Assembly (NCBI GenBank): GCA_025356475.1
Contig: JANXSX010000094.1
Location: forward strand, 1 to 40,559
DNA: 40,559 nt
Direction of reading: 5' to 3'
DNA from: Isosphaeraceae bacterium
Lineage (GTDB): Bacteria; Planctomycetota; Planctomycetia; Isosphaerales; Isosphaeraceae
Position numbers and translations under genes: made by a program. Shown one piece after another: positions 575 through 17,076 of this stretch. The stretch's first letter is position 1, and every line of letters begins with the position of its first letter. The notes below the pieces were generated by a model. It was given only the letters and a program-made list of their open reading frames with translations, had not been told where the DNA came from and ran no database searches.

Positions 575-1366
575 TCAGGCGGCGGCGGTAGCCCGGGGGG
601 CTGAGTCGACGTAATCCTGACTGAAGCCTTCGGAATCGGACTTGGCCCGGGCCATGAAATAGATTAGGAGGCCGTAGCCGGCCTTAGCGGTGATATCGGC
701 CATCGTATAGCCGACCTGCAAGGCCACCTGGCCGGTCGGGCTCTTGGTGCCGGTCACGGTGACGATCGCGTAGGCAATCGGGTAGAACGACCATGTCGCC
801 AGAAGGACTACACGGGCCAGACTGACCAGGCTGCGGACGGCCACGGGCTGGGTCTGAAGCGACTTCGTGAGTTGGGTGAACAGAACGGCGAGCAAATAGA
901 GGAAGGGGACCATACTCGCGCCCCAGAAGATCCAGCGGGTTGTGGGGTTGGACGAGATCTCGCCCGGGTAGCCTAGCCCGATCATGAGGACCGCAGCGAT
1001 CACCAGCCTGGCGAGCAAGCTACGCCCCTCAGCCTTCGGTAGGGCCAGGACCGCGATCAGCTCGACCATCAGGAGCGGGACGGTCAGGATCCAGTCAGCG
1101 TAACGGTAGGCGTCGTTAAACGGGGTGGCAGTGGGCTTGAAGAGGTCGCCGCTGAGGGCGTAGGCCAGGTGCCAGCTCTCATAAATCCGCAGGTAGTGAT
1201 ATCCGGCAATCGAGACAACAAGGCCCGAGACCAGCAGCGCCGGTCGATACTTCGGGGCGACTGACGATCGCGACAGGAAGAAGAAGAGCGCCGAGGCGCC
1301 CATCGCCGCGATCGTGAAGGAGAACATGTTCGAGACGGTGCTGAACTGCGCGACGGAAAGGTCCAC
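575..1366 (-). CDS. proton-pumping microbial rhodopsin (proteorhodopsin/xanthorhodopsin-like)
   Basis: Seven-helix retinal protein, predicted light-driven outward H+ pump in the inner membrane. From the chosen GTG start (263 aa) the helix-C block has R88, D91 (proton acceptor), T95 and E102 (proton donor): a DTE motif, as in proteorhodopsins. Leu99 sits at the spectral-tuning site, where Leu predicts green absorption. H57 in helix B matches the His that pairs with the acceptor Asp. Helix G has D224 and K228, the Schiff-base lysine, in ADITAK. The D-E loop reads GYPGE, which resembles xanthorhodopsin/Gloeobacter-type pumps. The GTG at 1366 has AGGAG 8 bases upstream and gives a normal length; the frame stays open to 1450 (291 aa), but that extension is basic and unlike a rhodopsin N-terminus. 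The gene is divergent from blh and crtY, which supply its retinal. Pump activity is inferred from the motifs. Confidence 0.95.
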   Translation of the reverse strand: MDLSVAQFSTVSNMFSFTIAAMGASALFFFLSRSSVAPKYRPALLVSGLVVSIAGYHYLRIYESWHLAYALSGDLFKPTATPFNDAYRYADWILTVPLLMVELIAVLALPKAEGRSLLARLVIAAVLMIGLGYPGEISSNPTTRWIFWGASMVPFLYLLAVLFTQLTKSLQTQPVAVRSLVSLARVVLLATWSFYPIAYAIVTVTGTKSPTGQVALQVGYTMADITAKAGYGLLIYFMARAKSDSEGFSQDYVDSAPRATAAA

Positions 1367-1752
1367 GGTCGGTTCTCCTGCCCCGCCGACATCTCGTCGC
1401 TTCCCCGGCCTAGGCCGGGTCGTTCGCTTGGGCACACTCGCACTCGGCACACGCCGAGATCATAACAACGAGGCACTTGCGAGCGGGGGAGGCTCGACCT
1501 CGGTCCGAAAAGGCCGTCTCTTGGGGTTGAGCGAGAGCCTCTCGGACGCCAAAGCCTCCGGTACGCCGGAAATGTCGGAAGGAATAATTTGTTTTGTAGA
1601 CAAGTCATGCGACAATTCAAGGAAACAGACGGCAAATCCCGCAATCGCCCGCGAATCGGTTGGATCGCGCCCCGACATCTCGACGATTGGCACTGAAAGA
1701 TATATACAGAAAGAAGCTATTTCTTGGGGTTATTACAACGGAAGCCTGCGCG
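1367..1752. other. divergent intergenic region between rhodopsin and blh
   Basis: About 390 bp with no convincing gene. It must hold the promoters for the rhodopsin (minus) and for blh-crtY (plus). At 1594-1603 there is an imperfect palindrome TTGTAGACAA in an AT-richer stretch, a candidate operator. An AT-rich patch GATATATAC lies near 1698-1706. I could not assign -35/-10 boxes with confidence. Confidence 0.5.
1594..1603. promoter_or_regulatory. candidate operator, palindrome TTGT-N2-ACAA
   Basis: TTGTAGACAA has matching half-sites TTGT and ACAA around a 2-base centre. It lies in the control region shared by rhodopsin and blh. A similar TTGT-N-ACAA site is at 5428-5436 upstream of the CarH-like regulator. 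Binding by that regulator is a guess from position and symmetry only. Confidence 0.25.
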
Positions 1753-2799
1753 ATGGATGCCCGAAGGCTCGTAGTACTTGTGACGTTTATCGGGTGGACC
1801 GCCTGTTTGGGATCGATCGCGTTGACGCTCACCATGCCGGTGGTGTCGGGCCTTCCGGCTGTTCAGTGGTCGCCCTGGCTGCTCGGGCTGCTCGTCCTTG
1901 GGATCTCGCACGGGGCGTTCGACCACCGGGTCGGGGTGGAGCTGCGAACGCAATATGGGGACTGCCCGGACGCGTCCGTGGGTGCGGGTTTCTACGCCGC
2001 CTATCTGACGGCGGCGCTGACGGTATTAATGGTCTGGTTCGCTTCGCCGATCGCGGCGTCAGCATGCTTCCTGGCGGTCGCCGCAACCCACTTCGGACAA
2101 GGCGACCTGTACTGGAGCCGGCGATTCGGCCTGTCGGCCTGGTCGGGCTCGGTGGGATATCGGGCCTCGCTCCTGCTGGCCCGCTCGGCGTTGCCGATCG
2201 CATTGCCGCTTTGGGCGTGGCCAAGCGAGTTTTCAGACGCGGCCGACGCGCTGGCAAATCGCCTCTTCGGTCGGGCGAGCTGGTCGGTCCCTCCGCAGAC
2301 GATCGCAGCGGGCCTGATCGCGCTGATGGCGGTCGTCGGTCTCCAGGTGGCCTGGTCTGCGTGGCTCGCGTGGGGTATGGATGGTCCGACGCGTCGTGCA
2401 GCGGCTGTGGACATCGCCGAGACGTTGTTGTTGGTCGCCATGTTCGCGGTCGTCCCGCCTGTCCTGGCCCTGGGGGTCTACTTCAACGCCTGGCACTCAC
2501 TGCGGCACATAGCCCGGTTGCTTCTGATCGCGGCTCCGACCCGTGAGCTGGTCGCCTCGGGCCGATTGCTCGCGGCCTTCTGGGAGTTTCAGAAGCGCTC
2601 GTTGCCGATGACGTGCGGGGCCCTAGCGCTGGCCTCGGGCCTGGGCTTCTTCGTCGGTCGCTCCCGGATGTCGGTCGCTGATCTTGGTGCCCTAGTCCTG
2701 GTTGCGCTCAGCGCCCTAACACTCCCGCACGTCCTAGTGGTCACGTGGATGGACGCCCGGCAGGGCGTCTGGTCGACGGGGCCCAGGCGGACCTTGTGA
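1753..2799 (+). CDS. blh: beta-carotene 15,15'-dioxygenase, Brp/Blh family
   Basis: Membrane enzyme that cleaves beta-carotene with O2 into two retinal molecules, the chromophore of the neighbouring rhodopsin. The 348-aa protein is hydrophobic throughout (many membrane helices) and carries the family's His-rich iron-binding signatures in order: SHGAFDH near residue 54, THFGQGD near 115, FNAWHSLRH near 245, and LPHVLVVTWMD near the C-terminus. The start ATG at 1753 has GGAAG 8 bases upstream; the frame is open from 1660 but the extra residues are not family-like. crtY starts 10 bp after the stop, so the two are almost certainly one transcript. The family assignment is strong; enzyme activity is inferred from family. 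Confidence 0.93.
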   Translation: MDARRLVVLVTFIGWTACLGSIALTLTMPVVSGLPAVQWSPWLLGLLVLGISHGAFDHRVGVELRTQYGDCPDASVGAGFYAAYLTAALTVLMVWFASPIAASACFLAVAATHFGQGDLYWSRRFGLSAWSGSVGYRASLLLARSALPIALPLWAWPSEFSDAADALANRLFGRASWSVPPQTIAAGLIALMAVVGLQVAWSAWLAWGMDGPTRRAAAVDIAETLLLVAMFAVVPPVLALGVYFNAWHSLRHIARLLLIAAPTRELVASGRLLAAFWEFQKRSLPMTCGALALASGLGFFVGRSRMSVADLGALVLVALSALTLPHVLVVTWMDARQGVWSTGPRRTL

Positions 2800-2809
2800 G
2801 GACTCGATC

Positions 2810-4126
2810 ATGTCTCCGACAAAGAGTTCGAGGGCGAGACGCGACGTCGTTCGGCGTAATTCGAGCCGCCGCGAGACGACCTATCCCTGCATAATCCTGG
2901 GGGCAGGGTGCGCCGGGTTGAGCCTGGTGTGGAACCTGCTCGAGCTTGGATTCGACGAACCGATCCTTGTGGTCGACCGTCGCCACCGGTTCGAGAACGA
3001 CCGGACCTGGTGCCTCTGGGACGTCGAGCCGACCCCGTTTTCCGACCTCGCCACGCACTCCTGGACGCGCTGGGTGGTGCATGACGGCCATCACGAGGCG
3101 GTCGCCGCCTGCCCCGAGTACCCGTATTTGCGAATTCGATCAGCCGACGTCTATCGCCGGGTTCTTGCCCGCTTGGCCTCGGCACCCAACGTCACTCTCG
3201 CCCTGGGGTGCCCGATCCTGGGCGTTCGCGAGACGGCCGATCGGGTAGAGGTCGCCACGTCCGGCGGCGAATTCGCCGGCCTCCGCGTATTCGACAGCTC
3301 GCGGCGAGGTCACCAGATCGCGTCGGTCGGCACGGGCCGCCGCCCGGCGTCGTTACTCCAGCACTTCTTCGGTCGAACGATCCGTGTCGACCGCCCGACG
3401 TTCGACCCGTCGACCCCGTCGCTGATGGACTTCCGGGCGTCGCAGGCCGACGGCCCCCACTTCGTCTATCTGCTGCCTCTTTCGGAGACCGAGGCGTTGG
3501 TCGAAAACACCTACCTCTTCCCGTTCACCCCCTCTGCCGATCGGCACCGGCGTGAGATCGCTGAGTACCTCTGCATGCGCTACGGGCTGCACCCGGGGAG
3601 CTGCGAGGTGCTGGAGGAGGAGTCGGGGGCGATCACGATGACCACGGCCTCGATCCCGGACGCGACGGGCTCGCGGGTCACGCCGATCGGCCTGGCCGGT
3701 GGTGCGGCGCGTCCTTCGAGCGGCTACGCGTTCCTGCGAATCCAGAGACAGGCCCGGGCCCTGGCTCTGCGGGTCGCGGCCGGGGACGATTCAGGTGAGG
3801 GGGGAGCCCTCCGCCCGCTCGGGTCACGCAAGTATCATTTCTTCGACGCCGTGTTCCTCCGAGCCCTGGCCGATCGACCCGATCTGGCCCCTCGAATCTT
3901 CGCCCAGATGTTCGAGCGGGCCGAGCCCGCCGCCGTGGTCCGGTTCCTGGGCGAGCGGAGTACGCTGCTCGACGACCTGCGGATCGTGGCGGCCCTCCCT
4001 AAGTGGCCGTTCCTCACGGCGGCCGTCCGCTCGGCCCCGGATTGGCTACCTCCGCCGCTCGGACAGCACCCGAGCGGTGGCGGCCCGATCCCACCCGCCC
4101 GCAGGTCGACCCTTGGCGAGGCCTGA
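2810..4126 (+). CDS. crtY: lycopene beta-cyclase, CrtY type
   Basis: Flavoprotein that converts lycopene to beta-carotene, the substrate of Blh. The 438-aa chain starts with a basic segment and then a Rossmann dinucleotide-binding motif, ILGAGCAGLSLVWNLLE (about residues 28-44), followed by the acidic strand end VVDRR. The block NDRTWCLWD (near residue 64) is the CrtY-type cyclase signature. A second conserved block FVYLLPLSETEALVENTYL lies near residue 223. The start ATG at 2810 follows GAGG by 8 bases. Gap to blh is 10 bp, so crtY is the second gene of the retinal operon. The upstream carotenoid genes (crtE, crtB, crtI) are not in this window, so the cell must encode them elsewhere. Confidence 0.92.
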   Translation: MSPTKSSRARRDVVRRNSSRRETTYPCIILGAGCAGLSLVWNLLELGFDEPILVVDRRHRFENDRTWCLWDVEPTPFSDLATHSWTRWVVHDGHHEAVAACPEYPYLRIRSADVYRRVLARLASAPNVTLALGCPILGVRETADRVEVATSGGEFAGLRVFDSSRRGHQIASVGTGRRPASLLQHFFGRTIRVDRPTFDPSTPSLMDFRASQADGPHFVYLLPLSETEALVENTYLFPFTPSADRHRREIAEYLCMRYGLHPGSCEVLEEESGAITMTTASIPDATGSRVTPIGLAGGAARPSSGYAFLRIQRQARALALRVAAGDDSGEGGALRPLGSRKYHFFDAVFLRALADRPDLAPRIFAQMFERAEPAAVVRFLGERSTLLDDLRIVAALPKWPFLTAAVRSAPDWLPPPLGQHPSGGGPIPPARRSTLGEA

Positions 4127-4208
4127 CCGGCTGAGGTCGCGAAGTGCGGCGTACTATGACTGGGTCCGCCCATGCGAAGGCCGAGCGATCCGGCGCGAGG
4201 TTTGTTAC

Positions 4209-4239
4209 CCTTGCGAGCAAGAAAACTGCAAGGATTTTT
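4209..4239 (+). terminator. probable terminator of blh-crtY
   Basis: CCTTGC (4209-4214) pairs with GCAAGG (4228-4233) and is followed by ATTTTT. It lies 83 bp after the crtY stop, in the convergent gap before the CarH-like gene. The 6-bp stem is short, so confidence is moderate. Confidence 0.45.
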
Positions 4240-4396
4240 CCTAGCGCTCGGCAGTTGGTGCGCGTGTTCGGATTCGTCCGGGGTTGCTTAAGGCCTCTAA
4301 GACAACCCAAACTACAAGTTCAGGGCGTAGATTGCCTTTTCAAACAGCGATCTTTACCCAAATTCGCGCACCATCTGCCGAACGCTAGAGGGTCTT

Positions 4397-5341
4397 TTAC
4401 CGCACCAGATCCTCAGCGGGTGCCCGGCGGCTCCGCGATTCCATCTCGGCCTGAAACGCGATGATCGAATCGGCGATCGGTCCGAAGAGGGGGATCAAAC
4501 CATGCTTGCGCGCCAAACCTTGATAATTCAAGATGCTTCGACCACCCACGAAGACCGGTACGTCACGAATGAGTGAGAGTTCTTTGAACCGCTTGTTGAT
4601 ATTACGGGAAAGGACGAATGAGAGCCCGATCGCGTCCGGCTTCCAGGCGAGAGCGGCCTTCTGATATTCGGACACAGGAAGATCCACGCCGAGATCTAGC
4701 GCCCGCCAACCGGCGAGTTCGACCAGGACGCCGAACATCAACGCTCCCCCCTGGTGACGGTCACCTTGCACGGTCCCCACCAAAACGATCCGCTTCGGGT
4801 TGGGATTGGCTCTCTGCGCCGTTTCGAGCATGTGGTCGAGCTTCCTCCGCAGGAAGCCGGTTACGGTCCTCTCCTGGTAGATCGAGCAGTCGCGGCGGTA
4901 CCAGCGGTCACCGATATCCGTCATTGCTGGGTTGATTACAGTCGTGATCAAGTCGAGCTGGCTCATTTGTTTGGCCAGCTTATCATAGATCTGGTCGGCA
5001 CCTTCGAGATCCGCGCTGGCGAGGCGATCGACCAGGATCTCGAACATCGCCCGTTCCGCACCCTCAAAGCGGGGTTCGGATTGGACGGCATCGAGTACGA
5101 GTTGACCGGACCGAACCGACTCGATCAGGTTGCCGATCGGCTCGCCACCCCGTGCCAAATCCGCGACCTTGCGGATGACGTGAACCTGATCGGCAGAAAA
5201 GCGGCGGTGTCCGGAAGGGGATCGGGCCGGCACGGGAAACCCATAACGGCGTTCCCAAACTCGCAACGCGTGGCAACTGACCCCCGTGAGCTTGCTGACC
5301 GCCGCAATGGAATAAGAAGCGTCACACGCAATTTTGCTCAT
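4397..5341 (-). CDS. MerR-type regulator with cobalamin-binding domain (CarH/LitR-like)
   Basis: Predicted DNA-binding repressor that senses adenosylcobalamin and, in the family, light; known homologues control carotenoid genes. Residues about 10-76 are a MerR winged helix (SKLTGVSCHALRVWERRYG, then SGHRRFS). Residues about 95-175 form the helical cap, with W147 and E157 spaced as the conserved Trp and Glu that contact the adenosyl group in CarH. Residues about 184-300 are a Rossmann cobalamin-binding domain with GDRHQGG (D194, H196, G199: DxHxxG, base-on His ligand). Odd: the residue after the Trp is Tyr148 and the one after E157 is Arg158, where Thermus CarH has His132 and His142. The gene is convergent with crtY and faces the rhodopsin cassette, so that cassette is its obvious target. 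The start ATG has GGAGA 10 bases upstream. Confidence 0.9.
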   Translation of the reverse strand: MSKIACDASYSIAAVSKLTGVSCHALRVWERRYGFPVPARSPSGHRRFSADQVHVIRKVADLARGGEPIGNLIESVRSGQLVLDAVQSEPRFEGAERAMFEILVDRLASADLEGADQIYDKLAKQMSQLDLITTVINPAMTDIGDRWYRRDCSIYQERTVTGFLRRKLDHMLETAQRANPNPKRIVLVGTVQGDRHQGGALMFGVLVELAGWRALDLGVDLPVSEYQKAALAWKPDAIGLSFVLSRNINKRFKELSLIRDVPVFVGGRSILNYQGLARKHGLIPLFGPIADSIIAFQAEMESRSRRAPAEDLVR

Positions 5342-5427
5342 GACGCGACCGTCTCCAGGCTCGGCGATTTACGGGATCCGACTTGTGATCGGAGGGACGG
5401 AAGAGAGCGGCGTACCCTCGCAATTAT

Positions 5428-5436
5428 TGTCACAAA
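5428..5436. promoter_or_regulatory. candidate operator, palindrome TTGT-N-ACAA upstream of the CarH-like gene
   Basis: TTGTCACAA is a 9-base palindrome 87 bp upstream of the regulator start codon. It resembles the palindrome at 1594-1603 in the rhodopsin/blh control region. Autoregulation is plausible but not shown. Confidence 0.25.
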
Positions 5437-5492
5437 ACCCCGCGTATGCCAGAGAGTAGGGACTCAATAACAAGAGGATTGAAGAGTCCGAT

Positions 5493-5512
5493 CCTTCCCC
5501 TTCGGGAGAAGG
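5493..5512. terminator. stem-loop after the helicase gene
   Basis: CCTTCCCC (5493-5500) and GGAGAAGG (5505-5512) pair with one mismatch around a TTCG loop. It lies 27 bp downstream of the sngC stop on the minus strand. There is no long T run, so it may be a weak terminator or a transcript-end stabiliser. Confidence 0.35.
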
Positions 5513-5538
5513 GTGGAACACAACACAGGTTCTTAATC

Positions 5539-7731
5539 CTAAACGAACCCTATGATCACTTCTTGAGCCCCCTTCAAATCAAGGGCCCTTGAAGCGGTAA
5601 CCTTGGTTTGCAACGCGAGCGACAAGAACGGTTCATACTTCTCAGCATCCGTTCCGACAAGGTCGCTGGCGATCGCCTCAGGTGTGGGAAGATTCCCCGC
5701 CAACTCGCGATAACCGGCAACTACCTGCTTTTCTGTACACTTCTCGAATCGAAGGGCCGGGCCGTCGATGGCGACATGGAACCGGCTACCCATCTTACCC
5801 AGGGCCATGAGAGTCATATGCGTGCGCGATCCTGCCCAGGGGAACCAGAGCAGACTCGACCCATCGTTGACGAAACCGCTCCTGCCCAGACCTGCTGCGG
5901 TGGCTGAGCTACGCGCTGTAGTCAACATCCGCTGGGCGGTTTCATCGAGATAGACCGGCATATCTTTGCGTATGAGTAAGCTTTGCATCATCTTGTGAAC
6001 GATTTTATGGATATCCCCACTGACCCCCGGTTGAAACTGCGGGGACCGTCCCCCAGGGGAGGGTTCGACCTCGATCGACTTCCGTTCGGAATCGACTTGT
6101 AAGATCTTCCACCGCTTGCCCGCAAGGATCAGGTACCCTTCGAGCTTCATCCATCCATCAACGGCCACTTGACCAATGGAGCGCCCTGCGCAGCTTACGC
6201 GGTAATCCTCTGGCACCTGAAACGAGACATAGAATTGATGGCTCCGAACAATTTTCTCCCCCTTGATCCCCAGGATCAACAACCCTTCATATGATTGCTC
6301 GATCAGGTCGGCAGCACCAAGGTCGCGTAACACTTGCACAAATATGGACTTGCCCACATGAGGGAATCCACCCGACTCGACCAATGCTGCATAAGCTTCG
6401 GCGGCTGCGACTCCACTCCGTTCAGCGATCAGGCTGAGTATCTGCTGCACGAGTGTGGACAGGTGAAGTTGACTCAGGTCGGGAGGCTCGATTTGCTTGG
6501 GCTTCGCCAGCATCAACTCGACGGTTGCAACCCCTCGCAGGAAACCTGGGAAGATCTGATTGACAAGTGTCGATTCTTTCGATGGACTAAACTCTTCCAG
6601 GAACATCCGCAGGATCGACGGTGCCCCCGACTTGCGACCACTCCGGCCTACTCGTTGAACCAATGAGTTTACGGAGAATGGCGCATCGATCTGACCAACC
6701 ATTTCTACCTCGCCCACATCAATGCCCATCTCCAGAGTGCTGGAGCAGAATGTGGCAGTCGGACGGTTCGACTTCAAGTCCTGCTCGGTATCCTCACGCT
6801 CGGCACGCGAAAGCGAGCCGTGATGGATTCGGAAGTTGTTCGCCTTGTGCAGCCGCTCCGACTCTCGTCGAGCGTAGTCGGCACAAAGCTCCAACGTCAC
6901 CTTACGATTCCCAAAGATCAGGGCGGTCTTGCCATCAAAACGCGTATAGACTTCTGATTCTAAACTTGTGTCCATATCCTCGTCAGTGGGCTTGCTGGGC
7001 TTGGTCAAGAACCCATGAACCCGGATCTTGAGTTCGCGCTCGTCACCCGAACCTTGGATGAGGCAGACCTGGCGGTCTGTCCGGGCTTTGAGCCACTGAC
7101 AGGCCAGATCCATATCCCCCAAGGTGGCCGAGAGGCCGACTCTGCGGGGCCTCCCTCCCGCGATTTTCGTGATCCTCGCCATCAAGCTGTGCAGATGCGC
7201 TCCACGCTCGCTGCCGAAGAAGGCGTGCATCTCATCGACGATGATGAACTTCAAATCACCAAACAGATGAGCAAGCTTTCTGGGATGGTTGACGAACAGT
7301 GACTCGATCGATTCAGGAGTGATCAGGAGCACTCCCGAAGGCTTGTCCAACAGAGCGGACTTGGCACCGGAACCGACATCTCCATGCCAGCGATAGACTG
7401 GGATCTCAAGCAGTTCACAGAGGTTCTCGACCCTCCGAAACTGATCGTTAATCAGCGCTTTGAGCGGGCAAATGTACAGGGCTTGGACGCCGGGATCGAA
7501 CGACCCGGCCAGGGTTGAGAGTATCGGCAGGAACGCTGCTTCGGTCTTGCCCCCGGCGGTCGCTGCCGAGACCACGACGTCGCCCCCACCGTCGAGAATC
7601 GTCTGGATCGCATCGATCTGGATCGGTTTCAGGCTCTTCCAGCCCATCTTGTGCAGGGTCTCGCGCACCTTCAGGTGGAGCCGATCAAAAGCTTGTGCCG
7701 ACCCTTCGTTTGTCCGAATATGATCACTCAT
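5539..7731 (-). CDS. sngC: Shango defence helicase SngC (Lhr/BrxHI-like superfamily 2)
   Basis: ATP-dependent superfamily-2 helicase, predicted to unwind or move along nucleic acid as the effector of an anti-phage system. The 730-aa chain has the Q-like region KPIQIDAIQ (near 35), Walker A ATAGGKT (57-63), motif II DEMH (166-169), motif III SAT (201-203), a TLEMGIDV block (about 332-339) and motif VI QRVGRSGR (359-366). The remaining ~350 residues are a C-terminal extension without motifs I recognise. The nearest families are Lhr-like and the BrxHI helicase of type 2 BREX. It is the last of three tightly packed genes; the start ATG lies 5 bp after the sngB stop. The combination with a TerB protein and a BrxD-like ATPase identifies Shango; the helicase alone would not. 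Confidence 0.85.
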   Translation of the reverse strand: MSDHIRTNEGSAQAFDRLHLKVRETLHKMGWKSLKPIQIDAIQTILDGGGDVVVSAATAGGKTEAAFLPILSTLAGSFDPGVQALYICPLKALINDQFRRVENLCELLEIPVYRWHGDVGSGAKSALLDKPSGVLLITPESIESLFVNHPRKLAHLFGDLKFIIVDEMHAFFGSERGAHLHSLMARITKIAGGRPRRVGLSATLGDMDLACQWLKARTDRQVCLIQGSGDERELKIRVHGFLTKPSKPTDEDMDTSLESEVYTRFDGKTALIFGNRKVTLELCADYARRESERLHKANNFRIHHGSLSRAEREDTEQDLKSNRPTATFCSSTLEMGIDVGEVEMVGQIDAPFSVNSLVQRVGRSGRKSGAPSILRMFLEEFSPSKESTLVNQIFPGFLRGVATVELMLAKPKQIEPPDLSQLHLSTLVQQILSLIAERSGVAAAEAYAALVESGGFPHVGKSIFVQVLRDLGAADLIEQSYEGLLILGIKGEKIVRSHQFYVSFQVPEDYRVSCAGRSIGQVAVDGWMKLEGYLILAGKRWKILQVDSERKSIEVEPSPGGRSPQFQPGVSGDIHKIVHKMMQSLLIRKDMPVYLDETAQRMLTTARSSATAAGLGRSGFVNDGSSLLWFPWAGSRTHMTLMALGKMGSRFHVAIDGPALRFEKCTEKQVVAGYRELAGNLPTPEAIASDLVGTDAEKYEPFLSLALQTKVTASRALDLKGAQEVIIGFV

Positions 7732-7736
7732 GAGTA

Positions 7737-9176
7737 TTAGAGCTTGAATGAGGTCAGATCGTCATCTCGGTCTGGCTTGACGATCGCTGTGGGTGGGGTT
7801 TCGCTCTTGCTAACTGGCTCTTCGGGCTCTGCCTCGGGGTCGGGAGTTGCTTCCATTTTGGTCGATTTGAGCATGGTCCGCCAGTCGAAACCGGGGTTCT
7901 GTTCCAGGACCGAGAGCAGGCCGACGAACCCCTTGACCGAGTCACGTGGGGTCCGAAAATACTCGGCTCCGAGGGTTCCCTGGCAATGAACCATGAACGC
8001 CTTCATGCCTTCATCATCAATGAGATACTTGCTGGGATCGCCTGACGCGAAGACTTCTCGAATGTTCCGGAGCATCACGAAAAGTTCCTCGGGGGTCAAG
8101 TTCGCGAGCCGGATCACCGGGCCTGAAAGGTCCTTCAGGCCCCCTGCCGAGAAGCTATTATCCGCCAGCCGGGTTGCGAGCGCTTCATAGCTGAAGAGAC
8201 CACGGCGGCGGTCTTCCAGGAAGGTATCGGTCCCACCGAATAGGAAGCCGATGCCCGTCGCTCCGCCTTGCAACGTGTCATTGAGGATCCGCAACAGGGC
8301 TTCATAGTTGGCGTTGCGAGCCTGAGAACTCTGAAGACGGTGCGAGAGGACGCCCATCTCATCAATGTTCACCAACAGCCCGGAATAGCCCGCCATGCGG
8401 ACGAACACCGCAAACAGCTTCAAATAGTCATAGAATTGACTATCCTCAATGATGGAGCGAACCCCAAGATCGGCCTTGGCCTCGGTCTTGGTCCGATACT
8501 CGGCGCGAAGCCAACGCAGCGCCGAGCTTGTCAGCAACTCTTTGCTCTGTTGATACCCTTCGACATACTTACCGATCACATTGGCGAAGTCATGTCCACT
8601 CACGAGATCTTCGAGTGGCTTCAACTGATCATTCACCGCCTTGACGACATCCGAATCCACCCCACCCGTGGCCCGGACCTTTTGATCGAGGTCGGAAACC
8701 CATCGCTCAACCACGCTTGTCAGCGCTCCTCCATCCGGCTTGGCTTTAGTGGCGAGGTTCTGCATCAGCTCTGCGTAAAGGGCTCGCGCCTGGCCACCAC
8801 TCCCATGGAGACGATGATCGGTGGTGATATCTGCTTGCGCAACCACAAACTTCTGTTCCAACGCGGCAACTCTCGAAAGGTTCAGGAAGAAGCTCTTGCC
8901 GGCACCATAGCGGCCGATAATGAACCGGATGCTCGCCGACCCGTCTTTGACCCGATTCAGATCGGTCAGGATCGCAGCGACTTCATCGAGTCGTCCAACT
9001 TGCAAATGACGAATACCGATCCGAGGCACCACCCCCGCGCGAAGTGATTGAAGGATCGCGTCACGCTCACGCGGCTTGATCGGATTCGCCCCGACCGATG
9101 GGGCTGACGACGCGGACGCAGGGGTAGAGCTTGGAACGATGGGTGCTTGATCGTGACTCATTGCGATTCGACTCAC
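7737..9176 (-). CDS. sngB: Shango ATPase SngB (BrxC/BrxD, DUF2791 family)
   Basis: P-loop ATPase related to BREX BrxD. From the GTG start (479 aa) a disordered Ser/Pro-rich N-terminus (about 10-32) leads to the family block LRAGVVPRIGIRHLQVGR (45-62), Walker A GRYGAGKS (88-95) and Walker B VNIDE (269-273). After about residue 440 the tail is Pro/Glu-rich and probably unfolded. The GTG start abuts the sngA stop codon (TAAGTG); an in-frame ATG 15 bases later (9161) is an equally good start. Overlap-style packing with sngA and sngC implies translational coupling and a shared complex. In BREX, BrxD works with a Lhr-like helicase, so SngB probably loads or controls SngC. That role is inferred. Confidence 0.85.
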   Translation of the reverse strand: MSRIAMSHDQAPIVPSSTPASASSAPSVGANPIKPRERDAILQSLRAGVVPRIGIRHLQVGRLDEVAAILTDLNRVKDGSASIRFIIGRYGAGKSFFLNLSRVAALEQKFVVAQADITTDHRLHGSGGQARALYAELMQNLATKAKPDGGALTSVVERWVSDLDQKVRATGGVDSDVVKAVNDQLKPLEDLVSGHDFANVIGKYVEGYQQSKELLTSSALRWLRAEYRTKTEAKADLGVRSIIEDSQFYDYLKLFAVFVRMAGYSGLLVNIDEMGVLSHRLQSSQARNANYEALLRILNDTLQGGATGIGFLFGGTDTFLEDRRRGLFSYEALATRLADNSFSAGGLKDLSGPVIRLANLTPEELFVMLRNIREVFASGDPSKYLIDDEGMKAFMVHCQGTLGAEYFRTPRDSVKGFVGLLSVLEQNPGFDWRTMLKSTKMEATPDPEAEPEEPVSKSETPPTAIVKPDRDDDLTSFKL

Positions 9177-11465
9177 TTACGTTGAGATCAGTTCGGCATG
9201 GACGATCAGGCGGTTGTCCTGCTCTTCCAGTATCGGATCACCAAATGTATCTATCGCCCATTCATTGACGATATCGAGCATCGCCGAGGGCATCAAGCCC
9301 GCCCGCTTGACGATCGCATCGAACTCGGAACGGGGCCACTCAGGCTTGGTCACGAGTTCTGCGAGTGTCCCATGATACCGTGTTTCGAGCCCCATGAAGC
9401 GAAGGTCGTCTGGATTCGAGACCGGGGCCGGAACAGACGAAGGGCCGGCATCCTCGGCTTCATCCTCCGGCTCGGCTTCATCCATCACTTCAGCCAGCCT
9501 ACGAGAGACTTCACGGGTCTCGCTGACAATCTGGCGGAGGAGATCCTCATCGAGCGTGAGGCTCGCCGGAGGTGTGAATTCGGTCGTGCTCGCGGTGACC
9601 TGGGGATCGGTATCGAGCCGACCGGCGACCAGTCGGTCGAGCACGGCAGGGGCGAGATTGAGTGCCTTATAGGCCGATCGAAGTGCGACAAGCTCTTTGG
9701 TGTTGATCGGACCATTTGAGGCGGCGACGCTAACAAGAAACGTACCGAGAGCCTCACGCTGAGGGGCCGTCAAGGCCGCGACCAGCTTTGGGCCAAGCCC
9801 AACGAGACCACGGGGCTGCTCGATAAGGACCTTCTCAAGTGCCTCTAGCCGTTGGGTATCTTCGGAGTTCAACAGGTACTCCGTTTCAAGTGCATGAGCA
9901 ATATGATCAACTTCATGCTCATCAATGGTTCCATCGGCGGCAGCGATGAAGACCCCCAGCTCCAGGACAAATGAGGCGGCGGCGTAGTTGGGGTCGCGAG
10001 GCATCACCAAGGCTGACATCGCAGTGGGATACACGGCGACGAGATCATCCCACGCGTACAGCCGATGAGTGTTCCGTGCGTCGGGCTCGATGGCCAGCCG
10101 CAACGCCTGGGCGGTCTCGGCTAGAGACTCCCCTTGCTTCGCGGTCAGCTTCTTGCGTGGCTCAATCTTTTGGATCTCGGCAAGCTCACGGATCTGGACG
10201 AGAACCACGCCGGATTTGGCGGTTTTTCTGGCGATCAAGGCATCCCACAAAGGTTTGTCCGGATGTTCAAGCCCAACTCTGAGGTCGTCGGGGAGTGCCT
10301 CAAACTTGACACGATCGAGGACTTCGCCAGACCGGGCCCGGGCTCGGGTCAGTGGCTTCAAGAGCTCAATCGATTCCGTCCAGAGCTCGATCATCGGCTT
10401 GAACTGACCCGAAAGTGCTAGCACGTTTGGGATTCGGACCGGATAGAATGTCTTACCTGATGGCGGCGTCATGACGCTGACGTTTGCAGGTTCGTAGTGG
10501 ATCGGCAATTCGCGTTTGCTCGCTCTCAGGAGCAGACCGTCGCCGTACTTGTCGCGGTACCGCTTGCTGAACAGGGTCGCGAACTCGATGAGGCTACGTT
10601 CCAGAACCACCATCCGTGGGGATCCGACAACACTCTTGGCGATCCGATGCGCCAGCAACGCGGGGAGCGGTTGCCTCCGTTTCACGAAACCCGCAAGCGT
10701 GACACTGAGCAGGGCATCATCACGATCAATTCGGTCGATCTCAAAGATTGGCACGATCGCCTCAGCCAACGCTGCATCCTGCCCATGAACGGCCATAAGA
10801 TAGCTCAGAAACCCGGTCAGCCAACGATCGAACGCTCCCGAGGATTTGTTCATCTTCAGGAGCCGTACAACCTCATTGGCGATCAGCGGAAGATCCTGGC
10901 CATCGATCAAGGCCCGTCGCTCCAACCCTAGGAAGAACAAGAAGGCATATCCAACATCGTTTAACGGTTCAACCCGGCCGGTACTCATCCACTCCAAATA
11001 GTTGGCCCGTTGGTCAGGTGAGATCAAGGCGTATTTGGGCGATGTACCGAGCCGACCCCGCACATCCGACTTGGGCTGGCCAACCTCAAGGCTACGATCA
11101 ATGCACGAGACTTCCAATTCAAGGGGTCTGGATTCGGACCAATACGCGAGCGGATCGTTGATTGTGTAGTCGGCCACACGGAGCACGTCTCCAACGCCGC
11201 ACCACAGGCTGGGAGCCGTCCGGGCTTTGGGAACGAGACGTCCTGCGATCCACCGAGCTAGGCTCCACAACAGGCCCCCAATCAGTTGCACATACGATGG
11301 CGAAGCCCCCTTGCCTCGTCTGGGCGTTCGGCTATGCAGCGTCCGACGACGGGAGGACTGATTGTTCCAAGCGACCGCCACCAGAAATAAGGCGACCAGA
11401 ATCGAGACAAGAACATCCGTGATGGTCGCCAATGGGAGTTGGTTCGCAGCTTGCAGTAAGGTCAT
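9177..11465 (-). CDS. sngA: Shango TerB-domain protein SngA with N-terminal membrane anchor
   Basis: First gene of the three-gene Shango anti-phage operon. From the ATG at 11465 (762 aa) there is one predicted membrane helix (residues about 13-33), a basic linker, a TerB-N-like domain (about 105-330, with SPDQRANYLEWMSTGR), a middle region, a TerB domain (about 495-610, with the acidic metal-binding-type loop AADGTIDEHE), an acidic linker (about 663-675), and a TerB-C-like domain to the end. The frame is open to 11717 (846 aa), but those 84 residues are unlike a protein N-terminus and would precede the membrane helix, so I prefer 11465; no clear ribosome site supports either. TerB proteins are linked by published comparative genomics to stress and DNA-processing systems. 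The exact role in Shango is not known to me. Confidence 0.8.
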   Translation of the reverse strand: MTLLQAANQLPLATITDVLVSILVALFLVAVAWNNQSSRRRTLHSRTPRRGKGASPSYVQLIGGLLWSLARWIAGRLVPKARTAPSLWCGVGDVLRVADYTINDPLAYWSESRPLELEVSCIDRSLEVGQPKSDVRGRLGTSPKYALISPDQRANYLEWMSTGRVEPLNDVGYAFLFFLGLERRALIDGQDLPLIANEVVRLLKMNKSSGAFDRWLTGFLSYLMAVHGQDAALAEAIVPIFEIDRIDRDDALLSVTLAGFVKRRQPLPALLAHRIAKSVVGSPRMVVLERSLIEFATLFSKRYRDKYGDGLLLRASKRELPIHYEPANVSVMTPPSGKTFYPVRIPNVLALSGQFKPMIELWTESIELLKPLTRARARSGEVLDRVKFEALPDDLRVGLEHPDKPLWDALIARKTAKSGVVLVQIRELAEIQKIEPRKKLTAKQGESLAETAQALRLAIEPDARNTHRLYAWDDLVAVYPTAMSALVMPRDPNYAAASFVLELGVFIAAADGTIDEHEVDHIAHALETEYLLNSEDTQRLEALEKVLIEQPRGLVGLGPKLVAALTAPQREALGTFLVSVAASNGPINTKELVALRSAYKALNLAPAVLDRLVAGRLDTDPQVTASTTEFTPPASLTLDEDLLRQIVSETREVSRRLAEVMDEAEPEDEAEDAGPSSVPAPVSNPDDLRFMGLETRYHGTLAELVTKPEWPRSEFDAIVKRAGLMPSAMLDIVNEWAIDTFGDPILEEQDNRLIVHAELIST

Positions 11466-11870
11466 ATGCGAAAAACCGTGCGGGTGAAGATCCAAGGGAG
11501 GCCATGCTTGCTTGGCATGATCGTCGAGACTGAAGATTTTCCGGTCCGACCGAAATAGTGACGTATGCTTGTTTTCAGCCGAGTTTCCCGAGGTCCCGTG
11601 CGGCGAACCTCGGAGACGAGCATCCTGGCGAAATCGAGTGATGGTAGCTCGAATTTTGCAGGATAACAAGCTCGGTGTCATCTCGCGAACCTTCGGGAAT
11701 CTTTCACCCGAAGCCAATTCTGTGGCCTAGATTCCAGTGGTGGGTTGATTCGATCACGATTCAACCCCCCTCGATCACCGTCCACGTCCAATTCGAGCCG
11801 GATTGATTCTCTCGGATTCTGGACGGTTCCGCCACCTGTTCACCGCTACGTCTTACATGGAGCAACACCG
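11466..11870. other. divergent intergenic region between sngA and the matrixin gene
   Basis: About 400 bp that should contain the promoter of the Shango operon (minus) and of the secreted protease gene (plus). It stays open in the sngA frame up to 11717, but that looks like chance. I see no repeat, RNA gene or clear promoter box. Confidence 0.4.
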
Positions 11871-13307
11871 ATGATCTCAGCTTTGCTCGGCCTCCGCAAA
11901 CCACGACGATCCAAAGGTATCAACCGAGCGATCGAACCAAAAATTGATGCTCTCGAAGACCGGATGCTCCTCTACGCCGCGATCGGCGGGAGCTGGGTCT
12001 ACCCGCAACGGATCACCTATAGCCTCATGCCCGACGGGACCCCCCTTGAAGGTGGGACAGGGGCTGCGACGAGCAACCTGTTCTCGACCCTGAACGCCAA
12101 ATTCCCCAACGTCGACTGGACACCACAGATCCAGCGGGCGGCGGCGATATGGTCGACGGTGACGAACATCAATCTTGTCATGGTCAGCGATAACGGCATG
12201 ACTTTGGGGACAGGGTCCTACCAACAGGGCGATCCGAACGTCGGTGATATCCGGATCGGTGGCACGACGAGCGTAATGACCAGTTCGCAACTGGCGATGA
12301 CCTACAAGCTGCCACCGAGTAATGGAGGCTCTCTGGCAGGCGATATCCTCTTGAATGACAATCAAGATTGGCAGATCAACTCGAATTATGACTTGCAAAC
12401 AGTGATGATTCATGAGTTTGGTCATGCCTTGGGGCTCGACCACTCCGCCTACTCAACCGCTGCGATGTACGCGACGTACAACAACATCAAGCAAACAGTG
12501 ACTTCAGATGATATCTCGGGCATCCAATCGCTTTACTCGGGGGCACGTACTTCGGACGCCTATGAAGGGGCAGCCCCCGGCAACTATAACGCCGCGACCG
12601 CGACGAACATCAACTCCTATCTCAACGCGAGCAACAATCAAATCATGCTCCCCCAAACGAATACGGGGGCTTATCCCGATATCAGTACGTCCACCGATAA
12701 TGACTGGTACAAAGTGACGGTTCCGTCCACCGGCACCCTATCCGGCTCGATGGTCGTCCAGATGCAGTCGGCAGGCCTCAGCTCGTTGAGCCCCCGCATC
12801 CAGGTTTACAACTCGAGCCTTCAGACGCTCGCCCTCGCGACATCCCCCAATACTTTTGGCTCGACCGTCAGCGTGACGATCAGCAATGTAACTGCCGGGC
12901 AGACCTACTACGTCCGATCCATCGCAGCGAATACCGGTGCTACCGCGATCGGGGTATACGGCCTCACGGTCAACTTCGGGACCTCCGCCACCAATCCGGC
13001 CCCCATTCCCACGACGACGGTCCTCGCCCAGCCGGATCGGGGGAGTGGATCCAGTAGTGAAATGATCGACTTCTTCTCGGTCGGTCATCACCGAAGTGAG
13101 GATGCCGCCAGGTTGGCCCCGACGGTACGGCTCTTCAGTCTGTCCGATTCCTCGGTCGGCTTCGACTCAATCGTCTATTTGCCAACGGTCGGGATCACGA
13201 ACTTCAATGCTGACGGCAGCATCGGCAAATTGAACGCAGTGGACTCAGTCTTGAACGCTTGGAAAACGTCCAAGACCAGGAATTTCGACACCAACTCGGA
13301 CGCATGA
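11871..13307 (+). CDS. secreted matrixin-type zinc metalloprotease
   Basis: Predicted exported peptidase. From the ATG at 11871 (478 aa; GGAG 8 bases upstream) the N-terminus is basic and carries LEDRMLL (residues 28-34), the LExR-xLL motif common at the start of large secreted planctomycete proteins. A metzincin catalytic domain follows, with HEFGHALGLDH (181-191: three zinc His and the catalytic Glu) and a Met-turn candidate at Met199 in AAMY. Residues about 275-400 look like a beta-sandwich pre-peptidase domain (DNDWYKVTVPSTGTL). The C-terminal ~75 residues have no motif I know. The frame is open from 11745 but without a suitable start. The next gene carries the same N-terminal motif, so the two may be exported by one route; substrates are unknown. 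Confidence 0.85.
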   Translation: MISALLGLRKPRRSKGINRAIEPKIDALEDRMLLYAAIGGSWVYPQRITYSLMPDGTPLEGGTGAATSNLFSTLNAKFPNVDWTPQIQRAAAIWSTVTNINLVMVSDNGMTLGTGSYQQGDPNVGDIRIGGTTSVMTSSQLAMTYKLPPSNGGSLAGDILLNDNQDWQINSNYDLQTVMIHEFGHALGLDHSAYSTAAMYATYNNIKQTVTSDDISGIQSLYSGARTSDAYEGAAPGNYNAATATNINSYLNASNNQIMLPQTNTGAYPDISTSTDNDWYKVTVPSTGTLSGSMVVQMQSAGLSSLSPRIQVYNSSLQTLALATSPNTFGSTVSVTISNVTAGQTYYVRSIAANTGATAIGVYGLTVNFGTSATNPAPIPTTTVLAQPDRGSGSSSEMIDFFSVGHHRSEDAARLAPTVRLFSLSDSSVGFDSIVYLPTVGITNFNADGSIGKLNAVDSVLNAWKTSKTRNFDTNSDA

Positions 13308-13469
13308 CGCGCTGAGATCCCGACACATTCGCCGGGATTGTCAGAAACGGTGAGCTATTTATTGCTTGGGGAGGGCAACACCTCCCCTCGCTTTCTTTCG
13401 CTCGAAACCAGTAGCGGTCGCTCTGCACCTATCGTAATTCGATCACCTCTGACAATCGGCGCGAACGCC

Positions 13470-16049
13470 ATGAATTCAACTATGGCTCAACCTACATATT
13501 GCCGTCGCCTTCGACAAGGGATCCTCCGTCCTAACCTCGAAGCTCTTGAATCACGTCTGCCGTTGTCGGGTCCTGGCTCTCTCGGACCCGTCCCGTTCTC
13601 GGTCGGTGGGGGAGACTCCCCGGCCGACCAGAGTGGGCAGAACATTCCTGTCCCCGTCAGCTTCGCAGCAATCAGCTCGAATCCGGCAGATGGTTCGGAT
13701 TTGACGACAACACCTAGTGTTATCACTATTGGATTCAACCATCCCATCGATCCCTGGTCGGTCGGCGCTGGCAACGATCTGATTCTGGTCCAGGTGGTTG
13801 ATGGTCAAGAAATCCCTTTCAACCCCATCCTGGTAATCTCCTCGACAGTTCTCAGCGACGATGGTCTGAGGATGGCGCTTAGCTTCACAACGAATACCGG
13901 AAGCCCATATGTCCTGCCTCGGGGAACGTATCGGGTCGAGGTGAATCCTTACACCGGGCTGCAAAGCCTGGATGGCAACTTCCTGATCTCGGATCCGAAT
14001 GCACCGACGACAGTAATCTCGACCTTTCATCTCAGCGAGAAAGGGGTAACACTTGGCGATGCGACTCCGATCACACTCCAGCATGGAATCGTCCAGACAA
14101 GCACAAGCTCACTCGACTTTGTGAACAATCCTTACGACGTGAAACTGTTCAAGATCGACCTGCCCGAGGGCCAAACCTGGCGGCTTGGGGCCGAGGTCTT
14201 CGCGAGGCGCACTGGACTGCACCTCGACACGGGTTTCTCACTCTTTGATGTCACCGGTCATCTTGTTCAGTCTGATCAGGCGGGGAACGTCTTCAACCCG
14301 AACGAATCTCGCGCCGGGAATGACCCGTTCTTCTTTGTCGGATTGAGACCTGGCACCTATTATGTCGGGATCTCCTCACAGGCGAATTTCGGTGATACGA
14401 CAGCAGGAATCGGCTACAACCCGATCACGGGATTCGCAGGCAGTGTCCCCAATAATCACGAGGCGGGGGGTGCGTTCCGCCTCAACCTTGTTGCAGATGC
14501 CGTTGGCGTCCCTATATCCGTAACTCGGTTCCAGGTCGACTACGCCGACACCACGAGTTCACAGCCGACGGGGCTGACGATTGGCTTCTCCAGTGCGGTT
14601 CAGCTCTCAAGTTTACATGCCGACCAATTCGGTCAAATCCAAGGCCTTGAGTTGGCAGATCAAGACGGGCACTCGTGGCCATTGAACGCGGTCAAGTATG
14701 ATCAGACACATGCAACCCTAACTCTGTTATTCAATAATCCGTTGCCGGTCGGTCATTATCATCTTGAGACCGACCTGAACCGTGGTTTGGTGGACCTTGC
14801 GGGGAATTCGCCGGTAGGGCAGGGGGGGGCCTCGCTCCTGGGAAGTTTCGAGGTTGCACAGGCTGGCCATGCTCAACCGACCAGGCTTGAACATGCGTTG
14901 GACTTCGGGCCATTCTTGCCGGGCCAGGCTAGCCCGAGCGGGACACTGAATCTGAGCGACGGCGAGACCCAAACGATCCGGGTCGTCGTGACCGTTCCGA
15001 TGGCGTCTTATGCGTTCGACACGAACTTTAGCGATGGCAATCTCACACTCACGAGGACAAATCCGGATGGGACGGAGACGAAGCTCCCCGACCCGCTGTT
15101 GACCAAATTTCCCAACACGACCGTGATGAATCTAAGTGCAGGCGTTTATACAATTCATCTTCACATGACTGGCCAGGGGACCCATTCTGTAGCCTGGACG
15201 TTGAAGCTCGCATCAGTAAGCTTCGACTCCCTGATCGCGAACGTCGTTGGCCAGGATTCTGCGCTTGGTTTCCGTCTGGTCTCGATGGTCACGCCCACAG
15301 ACTCGACGCCCGGCGGTACATTCCCCTCGCCTTGGACGGGTGGTTCGGCCTTCAACTCACCAGGCAGCTTCTCGTCCCCATCGACGGAGGGACACGCAGG
15401 ATCAACCTCCATCACCAGTTCGACCGCAGGTGTATCGGGCTTCTTTCCAACGGCGGCCAACTCGCTGGTTGGCCATCCCTTGAATGACACCGAGCATCTT
15501 GGCGTGGTTGGCCCAACTACCAATTCAGGCTCGACCGCACTGGCCTTCAACGGGGCGGGGCTGGTTCAAGGGGTAGGGGTCGGTCAGTCGATCTCAGAAC
15601 GCTTCTACACCGGTGACAAGTCGCTCGATACCGTAAACGCCAAGGTCGTTACAAGCGACGATACGTCTGGTGCTGTCACTGCCAACGAGGAGCCCGATCA
15701 CGCGGTGCGGTCTGCCGACGATCAGGTTCTAGCCAAAGTCTCATGGGTCGATCGATTCGGCAACGCCATCAACCGCTGGACGGGTCGAAGATCGACAATC
15801 CTCTCCGACGATGACCCGATGATCGAAGGCGAACTCCCTGCCAGCGAGGCGATTGAGCCCTCCGAAGAGGGCCGAATCCAAACTGCTGATCTCTCAGCCC
15901 CCTTCGGGATCGGCTTCGTCGCCTATCTCGTCACCCGATACCGGCACCAACTGACCAAGTTCCTCAACCGTGGGAAGAAGATTCCTAAATGGGGCAATTT
16001 GCCCGGACGACCGATGGGTCGTCCCAAGAGGGCCACCGTCCGGTTCTGA
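13470..16049 (+). CDS. large secreted protein with LExR-xLL motif and Ig-like domains
   Basis: An 859-aa exported protein of unknown job. The N-terminus is basic with LESRLPLSG (residues 26-34), matching the LExR-xLL export motif of the upstream protease. Residues about 55-155 resemble an SbsA/Big_5-type Ig-like domain (SSNPADGSDLTTTPSVITIGF), followed by a pre-peptidase-like region (DVKLFKIDLPEGQTWRLGAEV, then GTYYVGISS) and a second Ig-like domain near 345-455. A low-complexity Ser/Gly/Thr segment occupies about 615-690. Near the C-terminus a short hydrophobic run (APFGIGFVAYLV) is followed by a basic tail, which may anchor it in a membrane. The ATG at 13470 is chosen because the motif then lies at the usual distance; ATG 13482 is possible. 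No catalytic motif was seen. Confidence 0.75.
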   Translation: MNSTMAQPTYCRRLRQGILRPNLEALESRLPLSGPGSLGPVPFSVGGGDSPADQSGQNIPVPVSFAAISSNPADGSDLTTTPSVITIGFNHPIDPWSVGAGNDLILVQVVDGQEIPFNPILVISSTVLSDDGLRMALSFTTNTGSPYVLPRGTYRVEVNPYTGLQSLDGNFLISDPNAPTTVISTFHLSEKGVTLGDATPITLQHGIVQTSTSSLDFVNNPYDVKLFKIDLPEGQTWRLGAEVFARRTGLHLDTGFSLFDVTGHLVQSDQAGNVFNPNESRAGNDPFFFVGLRPGTYYVGISSQANFGDTTAGIGYNPITGFAGSVPNNHEAGGAFRLNLVADAVGVPISVTRFQVDYADTTSSQPTGLTIGFSSAVQLSSLHADQFGQIQGLELADQDGHSWPLNAVKYDQTHATLTLLFNNPLPVGHYHLETDLNRGLVDLAGNSPVGQGGASLLGSFEVAQAGHAQPTRLEHALDFGPFLPGQASPSGTLNLSDGETQTIRVVVTVPMASYAFDTNFSDGNLTLTRTNPDGTETKLPDPLLTKFPNTTVMNLSAGVYTIHLHMTGQGTHSVAWTLKLASVSFDSLIANVVGQDSALGFRLVSMVTPTDSTPGGTFPSPWTGGSAFNSPGSFSSPSTEGHAGSTSITSSTAGVSGFFPTAANSLVGHPLNDTEHLGVVGPTTNSGSTALAFNGAGLVQGVGVGQSISERFYTGDKSLDTVNAKVVTSDDTSGAVTANEEPDHAVRSADDQVLAKVSWVDRFGNAINRWTGRRSTILSDDDPMIEGELPASEAIEPSEEGRIQTADLSAPFGIGFVAYLVTRYRHQLTKFLNRGKKIPKWGNLPGRPMGRPKRATVRF

Positions 16050-16708: not shown

Positions 16709-17076
16709 GAATGCCTCAGTTTCCAAAGTCGTCACTTGAAGAGTGGAAACCGCAACCCGATGGTGTGCGTCCTCAGACCCCGCCTGCGTTCTAGGCCTAT
16801 CCCCTTCGAGCATACCAGGAGAGGCTCTCCAGCCTCAAATTCGAGGGTCTCTCCAGGCAAGATTTCCACGAAATCGATCGACACCAACGTGGATCAAATC
16901 GCCCACAAAATCGTTCAGATCGCCCTTCCCAATCGTCCAAGTGGGCGGATTGGAATCGAGTCGGGTGGATTTTGTCTAAGATATTTTGTAATTATTTTCT
17001 GCAAACCCCTTTCCTTGGGAGGTTGTCTAAGTTATTATTAAAACGTCCAAACCGACCACACGAGTTAAATCGTTCC
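16709..17076. other. AT-rich control region between pyrE and the second cobalamin-type regulator
   Basis: About 370 bp without a gene. The right third (16970-17045) is much richer in A and T than its surroundings and holds two copies of TTGTCTAAG (see the repeat entry). It probably contains the promoter and operator of the downstream regulator and, on the left, the pyrE promoter. Confidence 0.5.
16972..17031 (+). repeat. direct repeats TTGTCTAAG, 51 bp apart
   Basis: TTGTCTAAG occurs at 16972-16980 and 17023-17031; the match extends as TTGTCTAAGnTAT. The 51-bp spacing is about five helical turns, so both copies face the same side of the DNA. They lie 46-105 bp upstream of the regulator's ATG in an AT-rich stretch, as expected for operators of an autoregulated multimeric protein. 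Function is inferred. Confidence 0.5.

Follow-up and report, generated by a model that had tools for sequence, protein, structure and literature searches.

The window analysed here, a 40,559-nucleotide stretch of an Isosphaeraceae contig, carries a genuine retinal phototrophy cassette of an already known kind, in which a rhodopsin gene is divergent from blh and crtY. The best explanation for the locus overall, to which we give a probability of about 80%, is that this pump unit was acquired and now lies beside a native MerR-type regulator with a cobalamin-binding domain that is not dedicated to it. The nearest named relatives of the host genome (5.9 Mb in 232 contigs, 99.98% complete and 1.6% contaminated) are also Isosphaeraceae, and 45 genomes of this family were compared for the presence or absence of rhodopsin and crtY and for the kind of crtI. 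Profile searches found all four genes of the original prediction intact within positions 575-5341. The divergence of a DTE-motif rhodopsin gene from blh and crtY was likewise confirmed, with D-T-E and the retinal lysine present.

The rhodopsin gene is on the reverse strand. Its reading frame was first given as 575-1450 (291 amino acid residues), but the true start is likely the GTG at 1366 (575-1366, 263 residues), which is preferred because AGGAG lies upstream in the sequence and because it agrees with the start of the relatives. The protein matches PF01036 (E 5e-38) and is predicted to be an outward proton pump of the xanthorhodopsin clade; its best matches are the Salinibacter xanthorhodopsin (PDB 3ddl, E 6e-80), psXR and Gloeobacter rhodopsin. 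The features expected of a xanthorhodopsin-type pump, namely the rhodopsin fold, the DTE motif (D91-T95-E102) and the retinal lysine (K228), are all present, together with L99 and with W148 at the fenestration site. An AlphaFold model (mean pLDDT 88) superposed on Gloeobacter rhodopsin, Kin4B8, psXR and xanthorhodopsin with 1.0-1.6 A rmsd (1.0-1.1 A for Gloeobacter rhodopsin and Kin4B8). These four pumps, including the xanthorhodopsin of Salinibacter ruber, are about 50-56% identical to the window rhodopsin over the seven helices and share with it the DTE motif, the green-type Leu and the fold, whereas the window rhodopsin differs from them in having Trp for Gly156 and YADW for YVDW. Gly156 has been described as the residue forming the carotenoid-binding fenestration (PMC13093654; for its role see also PMC13043013). 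The window rhodopsin thus lacks the glycine that marks an antenna-binding xanthorhodopsin; the position is occupied by Trp in seven family rhodopsins (that of the window and six relatives) and by Phe in one, and bacteriorhodopsin also has Trp there. Judging from these residues and the model, the window rhodopsin is expected to be a proton pump without a carotenoid antenna.

The two genes on the other side of the divergent promoter region (1367-1752), which is common to rhodopsin and blh, are both on the forward strand. The first, blh (1753-2799, likely starting at the ATG at 1753), encodes a putative beta-carotene 15,15'-dioxygenase for retinal formation. Its product matches PF15461 (E 1e-56) and scores 170.1 bits against NCBIfam TIGR03753 (curated cut-off, 95.25), and residues H53, H113, H248, H252 and H326 are shared by no fewer than 17 of the 18 relatives compared; both the profile score above cut-off and the conserved histidines are those of a Brp/Blh dioxygenase. 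Only 10 bp separate the end of blh from crtY (2810-4126), the product of which matches the lycopene cyclase profile PF05834 (E 3e-55, 188 bits against a cut-off of 23.4) and falls below the narrower NCBIfam equivalog cut-offs TIGR01789/01790. The activities of both enzymes are predicted from these matches. No 8-mer was common to at least four of the rhodopsin-blh intergenic regions in the seven genomes compared.

The divergent rhodopsin/blh-crtY arrangement also occurs in six other Isosphaeraceae genomes from five genera (G007, G036, G004, G012, G041 and G039). Two further genomes (G005 and G044) have blh and crtY adjacent at contig ends and the rhodopsin gene on another contig, so the blh-crtY pair is found in eight other genomes of the family. 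We regard rhodopsin, blh and crtY as forming a single unit, both in function and in inheritance. The linkage of rhodopsin with blh is well known. Two Acidobacteria MAGs (L048 and L064) have the same rhodopsin-blh-crtY gene order as Isosphaeraceae, with blh and crtY placed as the sister group to those of the family (SH-aLRT 99); unlike in Isosphaeraceae, their cassette genes are all on the same strand and their rhodopsin is of the Gly156 (fenestrated) type. Both the tree and Gly156 hinted at a separate origin of the rhodopsins of Acidobacteria and Isosphaeraceae, which was not significant (AU; P = 0.11, the joint clade not being rejected). A similar case by its description is OTU-83 of Mushroom Spring, an Isosphaera-like member of Planctomycetes for which a xanthorhodopsin-like gene and a beta-carotene cleaving enzyme were reported in 2017 (PMC5459899); the passages describing it mention neither a crtY linkage nor a regulator. 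Planctomycete rhodopsins from cyanobacterial mats were reported in 2026 (PMC13043013).

The cassette would need lycopene from elsewhere in the genome, and the absence of a lycopene pathway had been named as grounds for refuting the original prediction. This objection fails: crtE, crtI and crtB were all found in the genome bin, on a single contig (C163), in the order crtE-like polyprenyl synthase, crtI, crtB-like gene and a weak crtC-like hydratase gene. The same crtE-I-B-C order occurs in relatives both with and without rhodopsin. CrtI scores 636 bits against TIGR02734 (cut-off, 238). The genome has three squalene/phytoene-synthase genes, two of which are hpnC and hpnD, adjoining hpnE on another contig (C91); the third is the crtB-like gene. 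Its product is below every CrtB equivalog cut-off, and its role as phytoene synthase is assigned because of its place in the crt cluster. The prediction that this planctomycete has a complete cassette for retinal phototrophy is thus borne out, and the phototrophy reading stands because the three-gene unit is conserved and crtE, crtI and crtB are present in the genome.

The distribution within the family points in the same direction. Rhodopsin is found in 9 of the 45 genomes, crtY of the cassette type in 10 and crtI of the window kind in 15, the copies in the other genomes being 74-84% identical to that of the window genome. Most of the remaining genomes have a tandem pair of crtI-like genes with only about 35% identity to it. 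From what is known of these families, we take the window-kind crtI to encode a C40 enzyme and the tandem pair presumably a C30 enzyme. Rhodopsin was present in nine of the 15 genomes with the C40-type crtI and in none of the 30 without it (Fisher; P = 6e-6, kinship ignored), and crtY was present in all nine rhodopsin genomes versus one of the 36 others, this lone crtY genome being 85% complete. The simplest interpretation is that crtY functions in supplying retinal and that only lycopene-making genomes retain the cassette.

The original prediction also held that a CarH/LitR-like regulator follows crtY. The gene in question (4397-5341, reverse strand) does encode a CarH-related MerR-B12 protein, but it is convergent with crtY and separated from it by a multi-copy element of about 150 bp, and the two do not form an operon. 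This MITE-like element (4240-4391) has terminal inverted repeats of about 25 bp and about 30 copies in the genome. The regulator has the domains MerR_1, B12-binding_2 and B12-binding with the cobalamin motif DRHQGG, that is, the MerR DNA-binding domain and the cobalamin-binding domain with DxHxxG expected of CarH; its score against the NCBIfam CarH model NF052513 is 128.3 bits, below the cut-off of 400. W-x9-EH is a signature of light-responsive cobalamin domains (PMC9304148), and the light-response signature has been given as GxxW, EH, GxxH and GxxxP (PMC11796333). The regulator keeps GxxW, GxxH and GxxxP and has ER for EH (W147-x9-E157-R158), so that the signature is incomplete; EH is present in five of its orthologs. 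The residue after W is Tyr, not His, which alone is not disqualifying because a photoreceptor with Tyr after W has been reported (PMC11796333). Thermus thermophilus CarH (5c8d, 3whp) is like the regulator in its MerR domain, cobalamin-binding bundle and Rossmann domain, and the W, the E and the lower-ligand His are kept, whereas His142 is replaced by Arg and His132 by Tyr; the relatives of the regulator, unlike T. thermophilus CarH, show no linkage to a crt locus. We also looked for a tandem pair of 11-bp CarH-type operator repeats (nnnnTnnACAn) and found none in 1451-1752 or elsewhere in the promoter region from 1367, upstream of the regulator or around crtE; the plasticity of such operators has been described (PMC9304148). 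A palindrome-like sequence, TTGT-N-GACAA, seen in two genomes was considered as a regulon motif and rejected, since it gave 11 genome hits versus 7 for the reversed control.

Orthologs of the regulator (47-58% identity) are found in 16 other genomes of the family, once in each, with an additional fragment in one genome. In none of the 16 does the ortholog lie beside rhodopsin, and 11 of them have no rhodopsin at all. For example, the two genes are far apart on the single contig of G004 (75 kb versus 2.99 Mb) and on one contig of G012 (4.31 versus 5.13 Mb). At 14 of the 15 ortholog loci compared, the neighbours match genes on the right-hand side of the window; at 11 of the 15 the ortholog is directly divergent from a matrixin-like gene, the window homolog of which (11745-13307) is followed by a gene for a CopC/Big_5-domain protein (13338-16049), both on the forward strand. 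Between the regulator and these ancestral neighbours a Shango anti-phage system is inserted on the reverse strand (5539-11717; SngC 5539-7731, SngB 7737-9176, SngA 9177-11717). The regulator is therefore considered to be in its ancestral place, because the right-hand neighbours in the window recur at the ortholog loci; it is probably a native gene and not part of the cassette. Its adjacency to the cassette seems to stem from an insertion unique to this genome.

Base composition separates the cassette from the regulator. In comparison with 174 ORFs of at least 250 amino acid residues from 18 stretches of 20 kb of the host genome (mean GC3 0.66, sd 0.05), the GC3 values of rhodopsin (0.83), blh (0.81) and crtY (0.83) were above those of all 174, and that of the regulator (0.70) was at the 78th percentile. 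High GC3 in the cassette could partly reflect expression level. The cassette appears to have arrived later, and the regulator to be the long-standing resident, because GC3 is outlying for the former and ordinary for the latter. The cassette is flanked on the right by the MITE and on the left by the end of an IS3 element, which carries the C-terminal part of a transposase gene at the contig edge (2-331, forward strand; PF13683, E 5e-25; NF033516) and extends to about 377; copies of parts of 200-382 (89-92%) are repeated on other contigs of the genome. The cassette was probably acquired horizontally from a relative, and we infer both the direction and the recency of the transfer.

The sharp change of composition at the MITE might also be produced if a foreign piece had been joined to the contig at this multi-copy element by an assembly or binning error, as MITE copies are found at the ends of several other contigs, the assembly is in 232 contigs and the left edge of the contig is inside an IS. 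We regard such a chimera as very unlikely, because the window MITE shares at most 49 consecutive identical bases with the copies examined and because the left flank belongs to an IS family found elsewhere in the genome; moreover, no other copy is more than 94% similar to the window MITE, the genome has the completeness and low contamination given above, and the C40 crt locus is present in it. Comparably little weight is given to the rhodopsin being a sensor or a degenerate relic that does not yield energy. The pump function is a prediction, and to our knowledge there is no characterised planctomycete member of the Trp-bearing rhodopsin clade; however, the DTE motif, the Schiff-base lysine, the His and the counter-ion residues are intact in all eight Isosphaeraceae family members compared, no transducer gene is present beside rhodopsin, and the cassette with both retinal enzymes is conserved across several genera.

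The linked regulator had been put forward as the light sensor of the cassette, which would imply that a CarH/LitR-like protein bound to AdoCbl represses the rhodopsin-blh promoters in the dark and releases them in the light. Its CarH-like domains, three retained signature elements and position adjoining the cassette are in favor, as are rhodopsin genes with a divergent MerR-B12 neighbour elsewhere, namely in Planctomycetes bacterium Poly30 and in an Acidobacteriota MAG. We nevertheless consider a dedicated sensor unlikely: the orthologs are never linked to rhodopsin and are mostly in rhodopsin-free genomes, G005 has rhodopsin and no ortholog, its synteny with the matrixin genes is native, its composition is native and unlike that of the cassette, ER replaces EH as the one missing element of four, and no tandem TnnACA repeats were seen in the rhodopsin-blh promoter region. 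In all likelihood the regulator has no dedicated role in the cassette and would not regulate it. We found no report in the open-access literature of rhodopsin linkage with a MerR/cobalamin regulator in planctomycetes. The direct linkage proposed as a novelty occurs in this genome alone, and it probably has no significance for the cassette. The Poly30 and Acidobacteriota pairs, with distantly related regulators (24-27%) that are likewise deviant at the lower-ligand site, are more convincing pairings, and because of them MerR-B12/rhodopsin coupling may exist elsewhere. A regulatory role in trans is conceivable because the ortholog is present in six of nine rhodopsin genomes versus 11 of 36 others (P = 0.06). 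That the native regulator came to control rhodopsin and the synthesis of retinal after the cassette landed, or did so already in trans, nonetheless seems improbable; if true, MerR-B12 regulators would repeatedly act as light/B12 switches for such cassettes, an idea suggested by the divergent pairs of Poly30 and the Acidobacteriota MAG.

Under our preferred explanation, an acquired pump unit beside an undedicated native regulator, the chromosomal crtE-crtI-crtB locus would provide lycopene, CrtY would divert it to beta-carotene, and Blh would cleave beta-carotene to retinal. Retinal would bind the rhodopsin lysine, and green light would then drive outward proton pumping, presumably without a carotenoid antenna. 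The unit probably came from a donor of higher GC in the fairly recent past, landing near mobile elements beside the MerR-B12 gene, whose ancestral partners are the matrixin-like gene and the genes around it. A position next to a plausible light sensor can thus mislead, and synteny and composition tell cassette and regulator apart. For the family, these results suggest that a compact rhodopsin/blh-crtY unit is the form in which retinal phototrophy travels among Isosphaeraceae, and that it would need only lycopene synthesis from its host, consistent with its confinement to the minority of the family with the C40-type crtI.

The CarH-like MerR-B12 regulator (4397-5341) and the matrixin-like gene (11745-13307) are a conserved pair. 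They lie next to each other in divergent orientation in 11 of 15 Isosphaeraceae loci (the corresponding stretch of the window is 4397-16049), and some members have the full light-response signature of cobalamin domains (GxxW, EH, GxxH and GxxxP). In the window, the insertion of a complete Shango anti-phage system (SngA, SngB and SngC; 5539-11717) splits the regulator from its ancestral neighbours, the matrixin-like gene and a gene for a CopC/Big_5-domain protein (13338-16049). Another MerR-like protein, encoded at 16972-17997, also carries B12-binding domains and is conserved close to the first regulator in several relatives; it has W-x9-EH but an altered lower-ligand motif (EGDHYSL). The MITE-like element at 4240-4391 is about 150 bp long and is bounded by terminal inverted repeats of ~25 bp; about 30 copies were found in the window's genome, and the element forms the end of several contigs.

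MerR-B12 proteins are encoded divergently from a rhodopsin in Planctomycetes bacterium Poly30 (locus L036, 6994-8013) and in an Acidobacteriota MAG (locus L035, 6815-7771); in the MAG, crtI-like, crtY and blh genes follow downstream. The 45 Isosphaeraceae genomes divide into those with a single crtI of the kind in the window's genome and the rest, most of which carry two distant crtI/crtN-like genes in tandem.

In G007, an Isosphaeraceae genome with the divergent rhodopsin/blh-crtY arrangement, there is an additional, frame-broken blh-crtY pair (locus L128, 4226-6111). The crtY of this broken pair shares 84-87% identity with the window crtY and is nearer to it than is the intact copy of G007. 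The 810-aa ORF adjoining the broken pair appeared photolyase-like by eye. In two Acidobacteria MAGs (loci L048 and L064), a blh-crtY pair as in the window accompanies a fenestrated rhodopsin (Gly156), and the pump may have been swapped there while the retinal-supply genes were retained.
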